A stretch of DNA of 64,000 bases. It comes from Bryobacteraceae bacterium. Its GTDB lineage: Bacteria; Acidobacteriota; Terriglobia; Bryobacterales; Bryobacteraceae. Made by a program: the position numbers and the translations under genes. The notes under the pieces were generated by a model that was not told where the DNA came from, ran no database searches, and saw only the letters and a list, made by a program, of their open reading frames with translations. This document shows, one piece after another, positions 47,295 to 60,973 of this stretch; the first letter of the stretch is position 1, and every line of letters starts with the position of its first letter. The stretch is taken from positions 1 through 64,000 of the forward strand of contig JAHCHE010000037.1 of NCBI GenBank assembly GCA_026129905.1, read 5' to 3'.

Positions 47295-48659
47295 GTGAAA
47301 ATCGAGATAATTGCGACTGTTTTCCTTGTATGCGGCGCGCTGCCCGCAAGCCTGTCCGCTATCGACCCGCAGGCGCCGGACGGCTGGCACACCGCCTCGC
47401 CGCGGCCCGAGATCAGTCCCCGCTTTTCCTATCAGCCGCAAGGCGGTTACCGGGATGGCGCGGCCTTTGTCATCGAGGCGGACGCGCGCGAGGGACTGGA
47501 CGGCTATTGGCGCAAAGCGTTTCCCGTCGAAGGGGGCAAGCACTATGCGTTCAAGGCGTACCGGCGCGCCGCCAACGTCGCGCTGGCCCGGCAGAGCGCT
47601 CTGGTCCGCATCAAGTGGCAGGATGCGGAGGGAAAGGACGTCGTGGACGATCGCCGGCTGGTGGAACGTTACCTGAACGGCTTCACGGCGTGGGCGCCGC
47701 CGGAATTTCCGACCGATAAAGCGACGGATGCCAAGGGCTGGACAGAAGTGTCCGATACCCACCAGGCGCCCGGCACAGCCACGCAGGCGGTGGTGGAACT
47801 CCACCTCCAATGGGCGCCAAAGGGGCGCATCGCCTGGAGCGGCGTCTCGTTCCAGCAGGCGCCGGCGCCGGCGCCGCGCAAGGTGAAGCTCGCGGCCGTT
47901 CACTTTCAGCCGCGAGGCGGGAAGAGTCCGGAGGGCAACCGCCTGCTGTTCGCCCCATTAATCGAAGAAGCGGGGCGGCAGAAAGCGGACCTGGTGGTTC
48001 TGCCGGAGACGCTGACGTACTACGGAACGGGTATGGAGCCCGCCGACATCGCCGAGCCGATTCCAGGGCCGTCAACCGAGTATTTCGGCAAGCTCGCGCG
48101 GAAGCACAACCTGTACATCGTGGCCGGTCTGCACGAGCGCGTGGGACATCTGGTGTACAACACGGCCGTCCTGATCGGGCCGGACGGCGAGGTGGCGGGC
48201 AAGTATCACAAAGTGACGCTGCCGGACGGGGAAGTGGAACAGGGGTTGGCGCCGGGGCATGAATACCCGGTATTCCAGACGCGATTCGGCAAGCTCGGCA
48301 TGATGATCTGCTACGACGGCTTCTTCCCGGAGGTGGCGCGCGAATTGACCAGGCGCGGCGCGGAAGTGATCGCCTGGCCGGTGTGGGGCTGCAATCCGGA
48401 ACTGGCGCGGGCGCGGGCCGCGGAGAACCACGTTTACCTGGTGAGCAGCACCTACGAGGACATCTCGCGCAACTGGATGCTGACGGCGGTGTGGGACCAC
48501 GCGGGCAGCACGATCGGATTGGCGAAGGAGTTCGGGACGCTCGCCGTCGCCGAAGTCGACTTGAACGAGCGCACGCGGTGGCGCAGCCTGGGCGACTTCC
48601 GGTCGAAGCTGCCGCGCCATATGCCGGAAGCGCAACCGGAGCCGGCGCTCAGCCACTGA
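47295..48659 (+). CDS. Secreted carbon-nitrogen hydrolase (nitrilase superfamily) with N-terminal beta domain
   Basis: This 454-residue protein has a signal peptide ([17 protein letters not shown]). A roughly 165-residue beta-sandwich-like domain follows ([21 protein letters not shown] ... [21 protein letters not shown]) that resembles carbohydrate-binding modules. The CN-hydrolase domain starts near residue 197 and has a complete Glu-Lys-Cys triad: E238 in VVLPETL, K306 in [11 protein letters not shown] and C339 in [11 protein letters not shown]. It should hydrolyse an amide in the periplasm. The start is GTG 47295 after a CATAAT box. Its end overlaps the convergent asnB stop by 11 bp. Confidence 0.88.
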
Positions 48660-50514
48660 CGGGTGGGCGGTTGGCGATGAACTCGTTCCACCACAACTGG
48701 AGGAACATCGAGGCGAGGAGTTTTCGCCGGTCGCCGCGCATACCGGTCCAGGCAGGCAGATTGCGCTCGACATAGCGGCGGTTCAAGGGACCGTTGGAGT
48801 CAAGCAGAAGCTGACGGACGAAGCTGGCCAGCGGTTCGCGGCTCCAGGAGCGGTTCGGGTAGCCCAGACCGCGTTTTCGCCGAACGGCAATTTCCCGGGG
48901 CAGATGACGTTGGGCAAGGATCGCCAGGACGCGCTTCTCCCGGCCGCGGTGAACCTTCAGCCGGGATGGGAGCCGCATCGCAAAGTCCACCACGCCGCGG
49001 TCGAGAAACGGCATCCGCACTTCGAGCGAGTGCGCCATGCTGACCTTGTCGGTCACCAGTAGGGTTCCCTCGGCCTGGCGGGCGGTGAAATCGATGGCGA
49101 GCCGCCGCTGCAAGCTGTCGGAACAGGACCTCAGGGTTTCCTCGGGAATCAGGACGGGCGCGACGTCGGGACCGCCGGCGCAGTATTCGGGTTTGAGCAG
49201 GTGGCGTTTCTCCTCGGGAGCACAGGGGCGGCGCCACTCGGCGTCGGCCAGACGGCCGTCGGCGGCGGCCAGAAGGCGCAGGGCGCGCCGCAACTTGACC
49301 GGAAAGCCCAAGACGGCGGCCCGGCGGAAGGGCCAGCGGGGAGTCACCTTTCGGATGAGATACGGGCTCTCCAGGCGCACCCATTCGTATCCGCCGAACA
49401 GTTCGTCCGCTCCATCGCCGCTGAGGACAGTCTTCACGTGACGGGCGGCCAGCGATGCCAGTTGGTACTCGACGCCGGACGGGGACGTGCTGCACGGCTC
49501 CTCGACGCTCCGGGCGACGGACGGGAGGAGCGCCGGCATATCTTGCGTGCGGTACTCGATCTCCTGGTGGTCCGTGCCCAGTTCGCGAGCCACGAGACGC
49601 GAGAAACGGCTTTCGTCCGCTTGCGCGTATTCCGGAAACACGATGGAGAAGGTCTTGAGGCGGTTTCCCGCCTGCTGCGCGGCGAACGTGGCGACCAGCG
49701 AAGAGTCCCACCCGCCGCTGAGGAACGATCCGACCGGCACATCGGCCGCCAGGTGCGACCGGACGGCGGCGCTAAGCCGGACCTCGAGCCGGTCCGCGTA
49801 ATCCCGGTCGTCTGTAGGCGCGGGATCCCGGCTGTAGCGCAGCCGCCAGAACACCCCCTCGCGCACGCCGCCGGCGCGCGCCACCAGGTAGTTTCCGGCA
49901 TGAAGCTTCCGCGTGCCGCGGAATATGCTCAACGGAGCGGGCACGTACCCGGCGGCGAGATAAGCGTCGATGGCAGCCGGGTCGGGCTCGGGCGCAATCA
50001 GTCCGGTGGCGAACATCGCCTTCGCCTCAGAGGCGAACAGTAACCCGTGTTTTGTTTGGGCCCAGTAGAGGGGCTTCATGCCCGGCCCGTCGCGGCCCAG
50101 CAGCAGGGTTCCGTTGCGCGTGTCCAGTACGGCGAGGGCGAACATGCCCTCCAGCCGGTCGAACAGCCGCTCGCCCTCCTCTTCGTAGAGGTGGACGATC
50201 ACCTCCGTGTCGCAGCGGCTGCGGAAACGGTGGCCCTTGCCTTCGAGTTCGTGGCGCAGCGCGGCGTGATTGTAGATCTCGCCGTTCAGGACCGCCTGGA
50301 TAGAGCCGTCCTCGTTCGGCATCGGCTGATCGCCGTGCTCGAGATCGACGATGGAGAGGCGGCGGCACGCGAGTCCGGCGCCTTGGGCCGGGCAGACAAA
50401 CGTCCCGCCCTGATCCGGACCCCGATGCCGCTGCGCGGCGTTCATCGCTTCCAGGGCGCGGTTCAGAGCGTCGGGAGAGAGACGGCCGGAGAAGATTCCA
50501 GCTATTCCGCACAT
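48649..50514 (-). CDS. asnB: Asparagine synthetase (glutamine-hydrolysing)
   Basis: This 621-residue class-II amidotransferase transfers glutamine-derived ammonia to an aspartyl carboxylate via an AMP ester. The N-terminal Ntn domain begins [10 protein letters not shown] (catalytic Cys2) and has [23 protein letters not shown] and LNGEIYNH. The synthetase domain has the PP-loop [17 protein letters not shown], where Trp replaces the usual Leu of SGGLDSS. It continues with [21 protein letters not shown] and [18 protein letters not shown]. Relatives also amidate other carboxylates in antibiotic or exopolysaccharide pathways. The gene starts 33 bp after the Mur-ligase-like gene, suggesting a shared role. 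Confidence 0.93.
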
Positions 50515-50547
50515 ACCAACGTCGCTCCGTCTTGTGGGCAGACCGGT

Positions 50548-51816
50548 TTACGCCACATGCTGCGGTTCCGGCGCCTCGGCAAAAGGACGAAAGCCCAATT
50601 CGGGGCAACGATCGCAAGAGTGCTTCGAGCACGCCACTTTGCGACAGGCGACATCGCCGTTAAGCGCGTAGTACAAGCGGGTAATGTGATCGGACATCCG
50701 CCCGCGCAGCAGAGCGAGATCGCCGGGGCGGAGTTCCGTCCGCAGGAAGCCGGCTGCTTCCTGGAAATCGACAAAGGCATGAACGCTGTCCGGCGGCATA
50801 CCGGAGCGGATGGCGTACTCGCGGCCGAACTGGCCACGTTCGTTGACGAAGACGAGGCACTCGGCGCACCCTTGCGCCTGCCGGACGAAGCCCTTTAGGC
50901 GGTCGCGCGGGGTGCGTTTGGAGTCGGAACAGTCGCTGATGATGAGGATCCGACGCCGCGCGCGCGCCCGCCGTAACACCTCCATCGCCGCGTCGAAGGA
51001 ATCGACGCAGCCGTTGAAGTCGTCCCGCAGCATAACGGCGCCGTTCGGCAGGATCACCGGCTGCATCCGCGCCTGGTACGGGTGGACCTCCGCGATCGCA
51101 TCGGCGGCTTGCTCGAGCGTGGCGCCCAGGGCGATGGCGGCCGCCATGGCGCCAACCAGGGAGTTGACAAAGTGCGCGCCGACGAAGTTTGTCGTCACCA
51201 AACGGCTCTCCTGACCGCGCCGCGCGACAAAGCGGAGCCGCTCCGGCCAGTCGGAGACGGCGTCGGAGGCCGACACGTGGGAATCGGGCGAGTCGCCGAA
51301 CCAGACCACGCGGTCCCGCGCCGCCGGAGCCATGGCCGCGACGTGCGGATCGTCAGCGTTCAGCACGGCAATCCCGTTTCGGCGCATGAAGCGCAGCATG
51401 TGCGCCTTCTCATGCGCAACGGCTTCCAGTGTCTTTAGATAGTTGCTATGCACCCTCGCCACCTTCAGGATCAGCACGACGTCCGGCCGAATCAGCAGCG
51501 AGGCCCGGTACAGATTTCCCGGCTGGGCGGTGCCGGCTTCGATGACGGCGAAACGATGCCATGGGCGCACCTTGAGAATGGTCGAGGGAACTCCTCTTCG
51601 CCCGTTGGTATTGCCCTCGGTCTTGAGGGTTGGCCCAACGCGGCTCAAAATTGCCGCGAGCGAGTCCTTCGCCGTGGTTTTGCCCAGGCTTCCCGTCACG
51701 GCGATGAAGGTGGTTCGAAACATGAGGGTTCGCCAGACGAACGCGAGGGCGACGACGGGCAGATGGGTAATGATCGGCCGCGCTGCACGCAGCTTGCGTA
51801 ACAGTCCTGCACCCAT
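50548..51816 (-). CDS. PgsB/CapB-like Mur ligase paralogue A with C-terminal four-Cys motif
   Basis: This 422-residue ATP-dependent amide ligase has the Mur-ligase central fold. The P-loop is AVTGSLGKTTAKDSL (residues 40-54). GNTNGRRGVPSTIL, FAVIEAGTAQPGNL, DVVLILKVARVHSNYLKTLEAVAHEKAHML and IAVLNADDPHV follow. Instead of a UDP-MurNAc-binding domain it has about 35 residues with one hydrophobic helix (HLPVVALAFVWRTLMF), an architecture like PgsB/CapB. The C-terminus carries C391-x4-C-x4-C-x2-C404, likely metal-binding, absent from known MurC-F as far as I recall. The start ATG 51816 gives exactly the same length as paralogue B. CATAAT ends 12 nt upstream. Confidence 0.82.
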   Translation of the reverse strand: MGAGLLRKLRAARPIITHLPVVALAFVWRTLMFRTTFIAVTGSLGKTTAKDSLAAILSRVGPTLKTEGNTNGRRGVPSTILKVRPWHRFAVIEAGTAQPGNLYRASLLIRPDVVLILKVARVHSNYLKTLEAVAHEKAHMLRFMRRNGIAVLNADDPHVAAMAPAARDRVVWFGDSPDSHVSASDAVSDWPERLRFVARRGQESRLVTTNFVGAHFVNSLVGAMAAAIALGATLEQAADAIAEVHPYQARMQPVILPNGAVMLRDDFNGCVDSFDAAMEVLRRARARRRILIISDCSDSKRTPRDRLKGFVRQAQGCAECLVFVNERGQFGREYAIRSGMPPDSVHAFVDFQEAAGFLRTELRPGDLALLRGRMSDHITRLYYALNGDVACRKVACSKHSCDRCPELGFRPFAEAPEPQHVA

Positions 51817-51828
51817 GGTCGAACACCT

Positions 51829-51834
51829 ATTATG
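51829..51834 (-). promoter_or_regulatory. -10-like CATAAT upstream of Mur-ligase paralogue A
   Basis: Minus-strand CATAAT ends 12 nt before the start. The same hexamer lies 13 nt before paralogue B, so the promoter was duplicated with the gene. Confidence 0.4.
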
Positions 51835-51933
51835 GCAATGCGGGCAAGGCCGCCGCCCTCCTCGCCTCGCCGGTGATCGACAAAGCTGCGATATTCCGGC
51901 GCGCGCGGACGGCACTGCGGCAGCATATTACCT

Positions 51934-53202
51934 TTAAGGCTGCGGTTCCACCGTCTCGCGCGGGAATGGACGAAAGCCAAGCTGCGGACAACTGTCGCAG
52001 GAGTTCCTCGAGCAGACTACTTTGCGACAGGCGACGTTGCCGAGGAGCGCGTAGTATAGGCGGGTCATGTGATCGGCCATTCGGCTTCGGAGCAGCGCCA
52101 GGTCGCCGGCGCGCAGCTCGGTCCGCAGGAAATCCGCGGCCTTCTCGTAATCCACGAATGCGTGAACGCTATCAGGAGACATGCCGCACCGGATGGCGTA
52201 TTCGCGGCCGAACTGGCCGCGTTCATTGACGAACACGAGGTACTCAACGCACCCTTGCGCTCGCCGGACAAAGCCTTTCAGCCGCTCGCGCGGCGAGCGC
52301 GAAGAGTCCGAGCAGTCGCTGACGATGAGGATCCGGCGCCGCGCGCGCGCCCGGCGCAACACCTCGATCGCCGCATCGAACGAATCCACGCTGCCGTTGT
52401 AGTCGTCGCGGAGCATCACCGCGCCGCCGGGCAGAATCACCGGCTGCACCCGCGCCTGGTGGGGCTGAACTTCGGCGATCGCACCACCGGCCTGATCGAG
52501 AGTCGCACCCAGCACGTCGGCGGCCGCGATCGCTCCCAGCAGCGAGTTCACGAAGTGCGTCCCCACAAAGCTCGTCGTCAGTTCGCGGGTTTCCCGGCCG
52601 AGCCGGACGACAAACCGGAGGCGATCTGGCCAGTCGCAGACGGCGGCCCGGGCCGACACGTCGAAAGTGGGGGAGGAGCCGAACCATACGACGCGGCCGC
52701 GCGCCGCCTTTGCCATGGCGGCGACGTGCGGATCGTCCCCGTTCAACGCGGCAATGCCATTTCCGCGCATGAAGCGCAGGATGTGCGCCTTCTCGCGGGC
52801 CACGGCTTCCAGCGTCTTGAAATTGTTGCTGTGCACCCGCGCCACCTTCAGGATCAGCACGACGTCGGGCCGGATCAGTAGCGACGACCAGTAGAGATTT
52901 CCCGGCTCCGCGGTTCCGGCCTCGACGACGGCGAAGCGGTGCCATGGCCTCACTTTCAAAATGGCGCGAGGGATTCCGTTTCGCCGATTCGAGTTGCCCC
53001 ACCGGGTTTCGACGGTGGGTCCAACGCGGCTCAAAATGGCTGCGAGCGCGTCCTTCGCCGTGGTTTTGCCCAGGCTTCCGGTCACGGCGATGAAGGTGGT
53101 CCGGAACATGAGGGTGCGCCAGAAGAACGCGAGGGCGGCGGCGGGCAAATGGGGAATGATCGGAAACGCGCCACGCAGCTTCCGGAGCCACCCCGCGCCC
53201 AT
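51934..53202 (-). CDS. PgsB/CapB-like Mur ligase paralogue B with C-terminal four-Cys motif
   Basis: This 422-residue ligase is highly similar to paralogue A along its whole length, including at DNA level, so it arose by tandem duplication. It has the P-loop AVTGSLGKTTAKDAL, the hydrophobic helix HLPAAALAFFWRTLMF, AVVEAGTAEPGNLYWSSLLI, VARVHSNNFKTLEAVAREKAH and the C-terminal CRKVVCSRNSCDSCPQLGF. The two copies differ mainly around residues 60-70 and 190-220, and the four cysteines are invariant. An in-frame ATG at 53217 overlaps the CATAAT box shared with copy A, so ATG 53202 is preferred. It is divergent from tatA and 117 bp before copy A. Confidence 0.82.
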   Translation of the reverse strand: MGAGWLRKLRGAFPIIPHLPAAALAFFWRTLMFRTTFIAVTGSLGKTTAKDALAAILSRVGPTVETRWGNSNRRNGIPRAILKVRPWHRFAVVEAGTAEPGNLYWSSLLIRPDVVLILKVARVHSNNFKTLEAVAREKAHILRFMRGNGIAALNGDDPHVAAMAKAARGRVVWFGSSPTFDVSARAAVCDWPDRLRFVVRLGRETRELTTSFVGTHFVNSLLGAIAAADVLGATLDQAGGAIAEVQPHQARVQPVILPGGAVMLRDDYNGSVDSFDAAIEVLRRARARRRILIVSDCSDSSRSPRERLKGFVRRAQGCVEYLVFVNERGQFGREYAIRCGMSPDSVHAFVDYEKAADFLRTELRAGDLALLRSRMADHMTRLYYALLGNVACRKVVCSRNSCDSCPQLGFRPFPRETVEPQP

Positions 53203-53215
53203 AGCAGAAACAGCC

Positions 53216-53221
53216 ATTATG
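53216..53221 (-). promoter_or_regulatory. -10-like CATAAT upstream of Mur-ligase paralogue B
   Basis: Minus-strand CATAAT ends 13 nt before ATG 53202 and overlaps the alternative ATG at 53217. Confidence 0.4.
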
Positions 53222-57531: not shown

Positions 57532-60500
57532 TTAGTCCGCGCCGATGGTTCCCACCAGCTCCTTCAGGTAAGCCGGCGAGCCGGCCCGCGCAAAATTGCG
57601 ACGCGCGGCGGACAGCCGGGCGGCGAGATCCAGTTCCGGCGACGGTTCAACCGACGAGTCGCGGTAACGCTCCAGAGCGTCGATGTGGCGCTGCCAGAGC
57701 GCGACGTCCTTGCGCTGCTTCGCCCGCAGCCGGGCGGCATACCAGTCGCTGGCAAGCACGGTCTCGCGCGTGAATTGCAGGCGCAGAAGCGGATCCCGGA
57801 TCGACATCCCCTCATAACTGCCGCGGGCCATCACATGCAGCAGGATGCGCACGGGCGGGCACGCGGCGTCGACGCTGCCGTCGGCGAAGTAGTTCTCCGC
57901 CACGCGGCGCTGGGTGGCCACAATCGCCTCGACGCCCGCGGCGAACATCGCCGGGTCCTGCTTCTCGGGCCGCAGCAGTTCCTCGGGAAAGACCGCGTCG
58001 GGCGTCTCGAAGATGCGGCCCAGGAAATGGTCGGCGAACTTGGCCGTGATGCGGTACCCCAGCCGGCTGGCGAGGATCGTCCGTCCTTCCACCTCGAAGT
58101 CCTCGAGCGGTTCCAGGTAACCCTGCTCGATGAGGAATCGAGGGTCCCGCTCGTGGACCTCCATCCGGCACCAGATCTCCGGCACGAGCATGCTGATGTC
58201 GTGATCCACGCGGTAGCGCGGGCCGATGTGACCGGCCGAGGTGGTGAAGGCGGCGTCCCCAGTGATCGCCATGGCCACCAGCGCGTTGTTTAGATCGATC
58301 ACCGGCGAGAGGGCGTTGAACGGCCCTTTGGTGAGGGCGCCTTCGCTGCCGAAACCGGTGGTGGACGGCGATTTTCCCGTGAGGCTGGAGATGAACTCCA
58401 TGAACAGCTCCGGCAGTTCCTGATAGTGAATCGGGTTGTACACCGCCAGAGGGGCCAGCCCGAGCGCGGGATCGGGCGGGTTGTTGCGCCGGCCCGGCAG
58501 GATCGCGTTGACGGGAAAGAAGACCTCCTGCTCCGCGGGAACGCTGCGGTCCAGCCGGGCGGCGACGGTGGCGGCATAAGTCTCGAGATCCCGGACGCGA
58601 TCGGGCCGGCGCTGGAGGTAGCGCGGATTCTTCGACGGCTTGCCGTCCACCATGCGCGGATGCGCCGAGGAGACGACGAACTCCCCGCTCCCGGCGTCGG
58701 CGAAACCTGCAAGCAGCTTCTTCATCGGTTCGCTGTAAAGGTCGAAATCCACGATGCGGTCGACGATCGCCTGGGCCTGTCCCCGGTCCAGCGGCTCCCA
58801 GTTTGAAAGAAAGACCTCGGGGCCCGCGATATCGGCTTCGGCCTGCTTGTCGACGCCGCGGTGAATCGCGTCGTCGGGACGCTGGAAGAGCATCGCCTCG
58901 CAATTGGCCACCAGCTTGACGCTGGGATTGCGGTACGCGGGATCGAGACCCGGCAGCGCTTCGCGAGGCAGAACGACCGAGGCGGTAATGTCGTCCTCCA
59001 TCTGCACTTTGTCCGCCGGGTGAAAGTCGGGCCGGAGCTTGTAGATACGCCAGGAGCCGTCGGGGTCGTAGCCCACCCGCAGGTAATTGCTCACCAGCGG
59101 CTGGCCGTCGAACTTCAGCTCGTGTCCCTGGTAGCCGTTGATGCGATCGACGGTGAAGTGCTCGCGCCAGTTCTTACCCCATTCGTGTCGGTAGTAACGC
59201 TTGACGGTGAAGACGAGCTGCCGGATGGTTTGCGGGATGTCGCGCAGCCACTGGTTGTAATCCGGGCTGTAGTCTTCCGACGGCGTCAGGAGCTTAATCA
59301 CCGAGCCGAGAGAGCGCTCCGGGCTGAGCAGCGGCCGGATGGTGCGGCGGTCCGGGCGCCGGTTCCGGTAAATCTCCGAAAAATCGGTATCGAGGATCGC
59401 CGCCACCTGGTCCATATCCGAGCGATAATCCTTGACGAATACGGGACCTTTCAAGAGCACGTCGGCGATCGATTTCGAGATTTCGCTCTTTCCGCCGCCG
59501 GAAACGGTGCAGGGCTTGTGGCAGACCACGCCGTCGGCCCGTATGCCGACCAGGCGCCAGGCGGTTCCGGCAAGCTGCTTCTGGAGGCGGACCCGGTAGC
59601 CGGAGGGGAGGATGTAGGTTTCCCCCGCGCGGAGGGGAATCTCGGTCCTGGCGCCGTCGCGCTTCCACCGTATCAGGCCTTCGCGGACGCTGAACTCGGC
59701 ATTGTCCGGGATATAGAGGATGCCGGGATAGCGCCGGTCCACGGCGTAGCCGCCATCCTTGGGCTCCGCGCGGCCGCCGAGTAGGCGGAGCGCGTCCTCC
59801 AGCGAGGCGGGCTTCAGCTTCACCGAGCGGTCGGCGAAGAAATCGCGGCCGAGCACGTAAGCGGCGAACGCGATGGCGCCGCCGGCGTGCTCCTCCTCGC
59901 ACATGCCGTAAAGATTCGCGGTGAAGCTGATCTGCGTTTTTACTTCTTTCTTCGAATAACCGAAATAATTATCGGCGATAATCGTAACGATTACGCCCCG
60001 CTCGTCGCGGCAGGTGATCTTGAACGCGTTGCCGCCGTTGTACGGCTCGGCCTCGTCGGTCCAGTACATGCCGTCGCGCTTCTGGCGCTCGGTGGCGTCC
60101 GCGAAACGCGGAAGGCCAAGGTCTTTCTTCTTCAGGCCCGCGATGTGCGGCGCCAGGATGACGCAGCCGGTGTGGCCGGTCCAGTGAAGCGCATCGAGCG
60201 CGGCGTCGTTTTCCGGCAGGTACGGGTCGCCGGCGTTGCCGAAGATGCTCTCGACGAAATCCAGGTTGCTGACCAGGGTTCCGGGCGCGAAGAAGCGGAT
60301 CTCCATTCGCTTCTCCGGGTCCCGCGCCGACGCCGGACAAACCAACGGGCGGAGCAGCAGCGAAACAAAGAGCCGCGAGACCGGCGTATGGTTTGCCATG
60401 TAAGGCAGCGTCAATACGTCGCCGGGTGGGCGCAGCGCGATTTCCAGCAGGGCGGCGAACGTCCGCTTCGGAACGGCGATCTTGTCGGCCGGAATCGGGA

Positions 60501-60918
60501 GGCCGCCCTCGGCGACATGGAAGACCCCTTCCGTTGTCCGGCGGTCGCTCCGGGGATTGTGCAGGACGCCTTGCGCCACGCGGTAGGAATCCAGGTAGGG
60601 CGAGTGAAAGCTGTCGCTGCCGGGCGGAAACGACAGCGTGCGCGCCATGCCGGGCCGGTCGACGGCGAAGGTGAGCGCCGGAAGCCGGGGCGCCGCGGCA
60701 GGGCGGACGTCGGCTAGGAAGGCGTCGAGGAACTCCTGGATGCGGGCGTCGGCGGGGCAGAGCCGGTCGCGGAGCAGGAGATCCTTCTGATGGAAGTTTC
60801 GGAGCAAAGGGCCGGCCAGCTCCTGGAAGTACGCGTCGGCCGTAGCCGGATTCGTCGGCTGGCCGAGCGCCGCCAGTTTCAGGTTGATGTAGCGGTCCAG
60901 TTCGTGCGGATTGCTCAT
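57532..60918 (-). CDS. Very large protein, probable PPi-type phosphoenolpyruvate carboxykinase
   Basis: This 1128-residue cytoplasmic protein has no signal peptide or membrane segment. Its size and motifs suggest the PPi-dependent PEPCK family, which interconverts oxaloacetate + PPi and PEP + phosphate + CO2. DEAEPYNGGNAFKITCRDE near residue 300 resembles the substrate-binding YGGN segment of GTP-PEPCK. Near residue 475, CHKPCTVSGGGKSEISKSI resembles a kinase-type P-loop. SSLTGKSPSTTGFGSEGALTKGPFNAL in the C-terminal half is also strongly conserved-looking. The family call is from recalled length and motif pattern and is not proven. ATG 60918 was chosen; the open extension to 61002 overlaps the divergent gene. 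No good ribosome-binding site precedes it. Confidence 0.6.
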   Translation of the reverse strand: MSNPHELDRYINLKLAALGQPTNPATADAYFQELAGPLLRNFHQKDLLLRDRLCPADARIQEFLDAFLADVRPAAAPRLPALTFAVDRPGMARTLSFPPGSDSFHSPYLDSYRVAQGVLHNPRSDRRTTEGVFHVAEGGLPIPADKIAVPKRTFAALLEIALRPPGDVLTLPYMANHTPVSRLFVSLLLRPLVCPASARDPEKRMEIRFFAPGTLVSNLDFVESIFGNAGDPYLPENDAALDALHWTGHTGCVILAPHIAGLKKKDLGLPRFADATERQKRDGMYWTDEAEPYNGGNAFKITCRDERGVIVTIIADNYFGYSKKEVKTQISFTANLYGMCEEEHAGGAIAFAAYVLGRDFFADRSVKLKPASLEDALRLLGGRAEPKDGGYAVDRRYPGILYIPDNAEFSVREGLIRWKRDGARTEIPLRAGETYILPSGYRVRLQKQLAGTAWRLVGIRADGVVCHKPCTVSGGGKSEISKSIADVLLKGPVFVKDYRSDMDQVAAILDTDFSEIYRNRRPDRRTIRPLLSPERSLGSVIKLLTPSEDYSPDYNQWLRDIPQTIRQLVFTVKRYYRHEWGKNWREHFTVDRINGYQGHELKFDGQPLVSNYLRVGYDPDGSWRIYKLRPDFHPADKVQMEDDITASVVLPREALPGLDPAYRNPSVKLVANCEAMLFQRPDDAIHRGVDKQAEADIAGPEVFLSNWEPLDRGQAQAIVDRIVDFDLYSEPMKKLLAGFADAGSGEFVVSSAHPRMVDGKPSKNPRYLQRRPDRVRDLETYAATVAARLDRSVPAEQEVFFPVNAILPGRRNNPPDPALGLAPLAVYNPIHYQELPELFMEFISSLTGKSPSTTGFGSEGALTKGPFNALSPVIDLNNALVAMAITGDAAFTTSAGHIGPRYRVDHDISMLVPEIWCRMEVHERDPRFLIEQGYLEPLEDFEVEGRTILASRLGYRITAKFADHFLGRIFETPDAVFPEELLRPEKQDPAMFAAGVEAIVATQRRVAENYFADGSVDAACPPVRILLHVMARGSYEGMSIRDPLLRLQFTRETVLASDWYAARLRAKQRKDVALWQRHIDALERYRDSSVEPSPELDLAARLSAARRNFARAGSPAYLKELVGTIGAD

Positions 60919-60934
60919 GCTTGCATGTCCCGAG

Positions 60935-60964
60935 TTGACTCTTGCCTGGATTATGCAATAAAAA
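60935..60964 (+). promoter_or_regulatory. Possible promoter of the class V aminotransferase gene
   Basis: TTGACT (60935-60940) and TAAAAA (60959-60964) are separated by 18 bp, and the -10-like box ends 9 nt before the ATG at 60974. The 55-bp divergent region also has to serve the large minus-strand gene. Confidence 0.4.
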
Positions 60965-60973
60965 ACAGACACT

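Follow-up and report, generated by a model that had tools for sequence, protein, structure and literature searches.

MurF-derived ligases with a four-cysteine tail and their amide-forming gene neighbours: a candidate route to amidated surface glycoconjugates or peptides

The window analysed here, 64,000 nucleotides of contig JAHCHE010000037.1 from a Bryobacteraceae bacterium (GCA_026129905.1), an acidobacterium of soil type, carries on its minus strand two tandem Mur ligase genes (Mur 1 and Mur 2, encoding P0001 and P0002) and a gene for an AsnB-type glutamine amidotransferase (P0003). Both ligases belong to a clade of MurF-derived proteins, present in at least six phyla, that have lost the N-terminal domain 1 of MurF, which binds UDP-N-acetylmuramic acid (UDP-MurNAc), and that end in a tail of four spaced cysteines (Cys4). 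We propose, at somewhat short of an even chance, that these ligases constitute a previously undescribed family which, together with AsnB, PaaK-like adenylating enzymes and methyltransferases, builds amide-linked, amidated surface glycoconjugates or peptides. The original prediction for this locus had described two 422-residue paralogues with a Mur ligase core, and their coordinates, strand and motifs were confirmed by direct reading of the sequence and by Pfam. Its proposal of a distinct four-cysteine Mur ligase family without domain 1 was likewise borne out by profile searches, by neighbour tabulation across genomes and by a core-only phylogeny.

Fold, active site and phylogeny of the Cys4 ligases

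In Pfam searches P0001 and P0002 matched Mur_ligase_M with 90–104 bits (cut-off 24) and Mur_ligase_C with 40–44 bits (cut-off 28.4), and no Pfam domain besides these Mur middle and C-terminal domains scored above cut-off. The top NCBIfam models were MurF or a MurE/MurF fusion, at 185–192 bits. These scores stayed under the curated cut-offs (187.5 and 191.3 bits for murF itself, against 288.6) because domain 1 is missing: the profile match begins at MurF position 63–67, and only ~41 residues precede the P-loop. The earlier label of PgsB/CapB-like ligases was not sustained, since both the best profile and the best fold were those of MurF; no PgsB/CapB model appeared among the 22–23 NCBIfam families matched at E ≤ 1, in a library whose inclusion of such a model was not separately checked. 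Cyanophycin synthetase profiles matched weakly (33–40 bits, E 1e-8 to 1e-10). The staphylococcal MurT (lipid II isoglutaminyl synthase) model reached 10.6 bits against a cut-off of 800, and no GatD was recognised in the window neighbourhood.

An AlphaFold model of the ligase, built with 36 relatives, had a mean predicted local distance difference test score (pLDDT) of 92.9 and a predicted template modelling score of 0.91. The predicted tail was also confident, with blocks at residues 381–410 having a mean pLDDT of 87–97. The best structural matches of the model were MurF structures (Z 37.5 to 4qf5, over residues 4–388), and MurT was matched as well (Z 27.9). Residues G42, S43, G45, K46, E93, H123 and K137 were invariant across the 36 alignment rows, and the P-loop GSxGKT, E93, H123, K137 and D156 aligned with their MurF counterparts, K137 falling on the conserved MurF lysine that precedes GEI. 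In place of the MurF amine-site signatures SYNAN and KGSR, P0001 and P0002 have D[FY]NG and LR[GS]R; the ordinary MurF of the same genome (L058) keeps YNAN and KGSR. A complete catalytic scaffold with replaced YNAN and KGSR motifs suggests that the ATP chemistry was retained and the amine site changed. The chemistry of Mur 1 and Mur 2 and their family assignment to MurF are well supported.

The N-terminal hydrophobic helix had been taken as a replacement for the UDP-substrate domain. That domain is indeed absent, but the helix aligns with MurF's own linker helix just before the P-loop. Hydropathy maxima over 19 residues were mostly 0.2–1.8 across the family, and a transmembrane anchor was rejected on the basis of these low maxima and of the match to the linker helix. 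Few members reach the level of a transmembrane helix, and the inner-membrane location originally proposed is weakly supported.

The Cys4 clade was defined by a C-x4-C-x4,5,6-C-x2-C tail together with membership in the core-only clade, and bacterial and archaeal species genomes were scanned, with additional searches of relatives. Tail-bearing proteins were found in Acidobacteriota, Verrucomicrobiota, Gemmatimonadota, Pseudomonadota (beta- and alphaproteobacteria), Bipolaricaulota and Sumerlaeota. A maximum-likelihood tree of 82 sequences was computed from core residues 33–388 only, and was therefore blind to the tail; it united 39 sequences, 37 of them tail-bearing, on a single branch supported at 100/100. 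The two tail-less members are a copy that ends early (L180) and one at a contig end (L042). The Cys4 tail marks a real clade, to which P0001 and P0002 belong by tail and by core-only tree alike. The four cysteines of P0002 (C391, C396, C401 and C404) were invariant in 14 homologues, in line with the claimed invariance of the motif, and the C-x4-C-x4-C-x2-C spacing is identical in Mur 1 and Mur 2. Three subclades were distinguished. The window pair falls in an acidobacterial one, another spans several phyla, and the third is small and includes a Gemmobacter plasmid copy. The counter-view that the homologues are merely MurF or FolC, without the cysteine motif and never beside asnB, agrees with these data in the MurF-type core, but both the motif and the asnB adjacency hold.

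Several MurF-like proteins outside the clade deserve mention. A SAR324 bacterium has a MurF of full length, domain 1 included (L123:9695-11128), that ends in a C-x4-C-x5-C-x2-C tail; it adjoins an FtsW-type gene and is the sole strong match in its genome, and its tail reflects either convergence or tail exchange. Patescibacterial MurF-like proteins (L083, L090 and L103) lack a Cys tail, have only ~30 residues ahead of the P-loop, and form a separate domain-1-less group. A further supported group of the tree includes MurF-like proteins of ~500 residues from Bacteroidota, Planctomycetota and Nitrospirota (L085, L088, L097 and L104), in which the stretch N-terminal to the P-loop is long and apparently hydrophobic. 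Two loci labelled Acidimicrobiia (L062, VFZE01000035.1, and L073) lie on contigs matching G031, a genome of the window genome's family, so that the label seems misassigned.

The window genome holds eight Cys4 copies, two of them in the window, plus one ordinary MurF, and other Cys4-bearing genomes also hold a separate ordinary MurF. Tandem or paired copies occur in the window, L066, L070 and G235, and two or more copies per genome in G461, G463, G465 and G466. Among 396 evenly sampled Acidobacteriota, with only four candidates scored per genome, about six (~1.5%) had a Cys4 ligase. Relatives also have copies that are interrupted by stop codons or frame breaks, or are truncated (L043, G049:C286; L047, G033:C45; L049, G031:C25). 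Few carriers and several broken copies point to a rare family with fast turnover. A viral or mobile-element origin was rejected: no relatives were found in viral contigs, and the Gemmobacter copy was the single member recognised on a plasmid. Mur 1 and Mur 2 are 79% identical, with a synonymous divergence (dS) of 0.68, a nonsynonymous divergence (dN) of 0.13 and a dN/dS ratio of 0.19. Such a high dS at this low ratio argues that both copies were retained for function under purifying selection, neither being a fresh or a decaying duplicate.

Locus structure and gene neighbours

The order of transcription is Mur 1, Mur 2, asnB, with gaps of 117 bp and 33 bp, respectively (Table 1). For Mur 1, the ATG at 53202 that is common to the paralogue gives 422 residues, and an in-frame ATG at 53217 would add five (427 residues). 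The asnB gene originally noted 33 bp away is present, but its SGGWDSS PP-loop is just the normal SGGxDS motif of AsnB proteins. The trio is flanked by genes for a nitrilase family protein, TatA and a TonB receptor. Elsewhere in the window, positions 57532-60972 of the minus strand encode a predicted protein of ~1146 residues without a Pfam match at E ≤ 0.001.

Table 1. Positions in the window of the ligase genes, their tails and the amidotransferase gene.
Feature	Position	Strand	Description
Mur 1 (P0001)	51934..53202	(-)	MurF-type central and C-terminal domains, without domain 1; Cys4 tail
Mur 2 (P0002), 422 aa	50548..51816	(-)	Tandem paralogue of Mur 1
Cys4 tail of Mur 2	50599..50646	(-)	Residues 391-404 plus margin, C-x4-C-x4-C-x2-C; direct sequence reading
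Cys4 tail of Mur 1	near 51983-52030	(-)	Equivalent to Mur 2 tail
AsnB-type class-II glutamine amidotransferase (P0003), 621 aa	48649..50514	(-)	Cys2 nucleophile MCGIAG; PP-loop SGGWDSS

The gene neighbours of 45 tail-clade loci were compared with those of 55 MurF-like control loci without the tail. AsnB was found within 4 kb in 7 of the 45 tail-clade loci and in 0 of the 55 controls (Fisher p = 0.003); widening the range to 10 kb left the tail-clade count at 7. It was directly adjacent, 0–123 bp from the ligase, in the window, L059, L068, L071, L075 and L215, and 1.4 kb away in L072. From the roughly four AsnB-like genes of the window genome, we estimate that well under one random adjacency would be expected over the 45 loci. 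As the controls are mostly ordinary murF loci, the comparison shows a difference and not a rate for random genes; the neighbour p-values overstate the evidence, because the query set was drawn from the same loci and because of shared ancestry. The co-conservation of asnB expected in relatives was thus partly recovered: the pairing recurs across phyla, but it is not obligatory.

Genes for PaaK-like adenylating enzymes were found near 8/45 loci (p 0.001) and a class-I methyltransferase family near 10/45 (p 0.0002). ATP-grasp (three loci), GNAT (three) and beta-keto acid cleavage enzymes (two) also recurred beside ligases. At L057 in the window genome the order is glycosyltransferase, PaaK-like gene and Cys4 ligase, the latter two 31 bp apart. 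Two large adjacent genes with at least one non-ribosomal peptide synthetase (NRPS) module (condensation, adenylation, thiolation and thioesterase domains, C-A-T-TE) lie directly before the tandem pair of L066, and a protein with an O-antigen ligase domain (Wzy_C) adjoins the ligase of L078. Glycosyltransferases and a pyruvyltransferase surround the Gemmobacter plasmid copy, and GNAT plus AsnB stand beside the ligase in L071 and near it in L215. The culturable Gemmobacter aquarius HYN0069 has a Cys4 ligase gene in such glycosyltransferase surroundings. Many acidobacterial Cys4 copies sit among unrelated genes.

The L057 PaaK-like protein (L057:7747-9375) and seven further copies in the same genome form a diverged family of adenylate-forming enzymes that Pfam does not recognise. 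This family occurred in 7/8 Cys4-bearing relatives vs 7/53 others (p 6e-5; co-occurrence p-values for AsnB and PaaK-like genes are uncorrected for genome size and kinship). Other PaaK-like copies have genes for ABC transporters, sulfatases and TonB proteins nearby; these look like unrelated uptake loci and were set aside.

P0003 scored 416 bits with the XrtA/PEP-CTERM amidotransferase model TIGR03108 (cut-off 816.9) and 351 bits with the model for the amidotransferase of N-acetylglutaminylglutamine amide (NAGGN) synthesis (cut-off 570), reaching neither cut-off. Window-type AsnB proteins (>500 bits) were present in only 3 of 61 relatives (G000, G031 and G049), all Cys4-bearing (p = 0.0016). 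The gene does not adjoin a ligase in G031 or G049; its G031 copy has a PaaK-like gene close by. The phylum-wide sample, in which three candidates were scored per genome, was uninformative on this co-occurrence, as only the window genome itself carried a window-type AsnB. AsnB homologues amidate diaminopimelate (mDAP) in Listeria peptidoglycan (PMC8554201), and AsnO amidates the dipeptide NAGG to give NAGGN (PMC8070244). These precedents make an amidating rather than an asparagine-making role plausible for P0003.

Proposed function and its alternatives

We give an even chance to a reading in which the Cys4 proteins are MurF-derived amide ligases acting on an acceptor that is not a nucleotide, and AsnB amidates a carboxylate left free on their product. 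Having lost the UDP-MurNAc-binding domain and altered the amine-binding site, the Mur proteins would use ATP at the P-loop to phosphorylate a carboxylate on an acceptor. This acceptor would be something other than a UDP-muramyl peptide: most likely a glycan that is linked to a lipid or polymer and carries a uronic or amino acid, or else a small peptide. Amide formation would follow when an amine or amino acid displaces the phosphate. The Cys4 tail may form a small putative metal knuckle, probably binding zinc, with a role in stabilising the C-terminal domain or in docking a partner. AsnB would convert the remaining carboxylate of the same product to a carboxamide with glutamine-derived ammonia, and with two ligases there may be two additions in succession, or the ligases may form a heterodimer. 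Making amide-decorated glycans or small peptides requires adenylating enzymes, ligases, methyltransferases and amidotransferases. A polymer, originally suggested as one possible product, fits less well, as the neighbours speak more for decoration of a glycan or peptide.

Four observations weigh against the amide-ligase proposal. No glycan, lipid or NRPS genes were found in the flanks of the window trio, most Cys4 loci have no AsnB nearby, and only one Cys4 site among the eight copies of the window genome has one. Moreover, P0003 passes the general asparagine synthase (glutamine-hydrolysing) model TIGR01536 (446 bits, cut-off 267) and could therefore simply make asparagine.

Among the alternatives, a peptide natural-product route is unlikely; here the ligases would lengthen or modify a small non-ribosomal peptide and AsnB would cap it by amidation, in the manner of the Ngg and AsnO pair. 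In its favour are the NAGGN precedent, the NRPS module of L066, the GNAT and AsnB genes of L071 and L215, and the sub-threshold NAGGN score of P0003. An NRPS beside the ligase was, however, recognised in one locus only, and several loci carry glycan genes instead. It is distinctly unlikely that asnB encodes an ordinary asparagine synthetase in an incidental position; the TIGR01536 match would be explained, but the genome has three other AsnB-like genes, the adjacency recurs in six loci, and the window-type lineage is confined to Cys4-bearing relatives. A MurT/GatD-like heteromer, with the Cys4 Mur protein activating the carboxylate and the AsnB glutaminase domain supplying ammonia within one amidotransferase complex, is improbable: MurT likewise lacks domain 1 and has a cysteine-rich, probably zinc-binding element at its GatD interface, but AsnB retains a complete synthetase domain of its own and is absent near most Cys4 ligases, GatD is a class-I amidotransferase, and the cysteine element lies elsewhere in the chain. 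An accessory MurF working on peptidoglycan precursors or recycled muropeptides would agree with the MurF ancestry, the full ATPase site and the amidation of Listeria mDAP by AsnB homologues; it is highly improbable given the missing UDP-MurNAc domain, the loss of the D-Ala-D-Ala-site signatures SYNAN and KGSR, and the occurrence in so few sampled Acidobacteriota. Most improbable is an amino-acid polymerase like PgsB/CapB or cyanophycin synthetase, which the loss of domain 1 and the weak cyanophycin synthetase matches would suit, but MurF is the far better match, and no second polymerase domain gene, primer site or exporter adjoins the window trio.

In agreement with the original view that no described system has this set of genes, the open-access literature searched, which did not cover subscription papers, contained no Mur ligase/AsnB pathway and no Mur ligase in polysaccharide or natural-product clusters. 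The clade would represent a MurF scaffold taken out of peptidoglycan synthesis, with the nucleotide-sugar domain lost, a probable metal knuckle gained and recurring amide-forming neighbours. With a surface glycan as substrate, the clade would offer a genetic handle on amino-acid-decorated polysaccharides; with a small peptide, it would provide a new non-ribosomal route to amides. The sequence signature makes the clade easy to find and test elsewhere.

Comparison with known systems

Cyanophycin synthetase and PgsB/CapB share with the Cys4 proteins the use of a Mur ligase module outside peptidoglycan synthesis; the similarity is weak, no PgsB model was among the NCBIfam matches at E ≤ 1, and the ATP-grasp half of CphA is missing. 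The NAGGN pathway (Ngg and AsnO) likewise yields an amidated dipeptide through an AsnB-family amidotransferase paired with amide ligase and GNAT functions, but its ligase is of the ATP-grasp type, not a Mur ligase, and P0003 falls below the cut-off of the NAGGN model. Closer to the amidotransferase are the AsnB/LtsA-type enzymes acting on mDAP and the XrtA/PEP-CTERM exopolysaccharide amidotransferases (TIGR03108), in which an AsnB fold amidates a carboxylate of an envelope molecule. TIGR03108 was the first or second model for the ligase-linked AsnB proteins, although their 406–515 bits stay well under the equivalog cut-off of 817.

With MurF, the UDP-MurNAc-tripeptide:D-Ala-D-Ala ligase, the Cys4 ligases share the central and C-terminal fold, the P-loop and the catalytic E, H, K and D residues, and it is their best profile and structure match. 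They differ from it in lacking domain 1, in their altered amine-site motifs, in the added tail and in being extra to an ordinary MurF. MurT of the MurT/GatD lipid II amidotransferase differs in the position of its cysteine-rich insertion, in its class-I partner GatD instead of AsnB and in a structure-aligned identity of 12–16%. Like the Cys4 ligases, it lacks the UDP-binding domain 1, has a four-cysteine, probable zinc element and works with a glutaminase. The cysteine-rich, probably zinc-binding insertion of MurT contributes to the GatD interface (PMC6085368), and the Cys4 tail may, in principle, resemble it.

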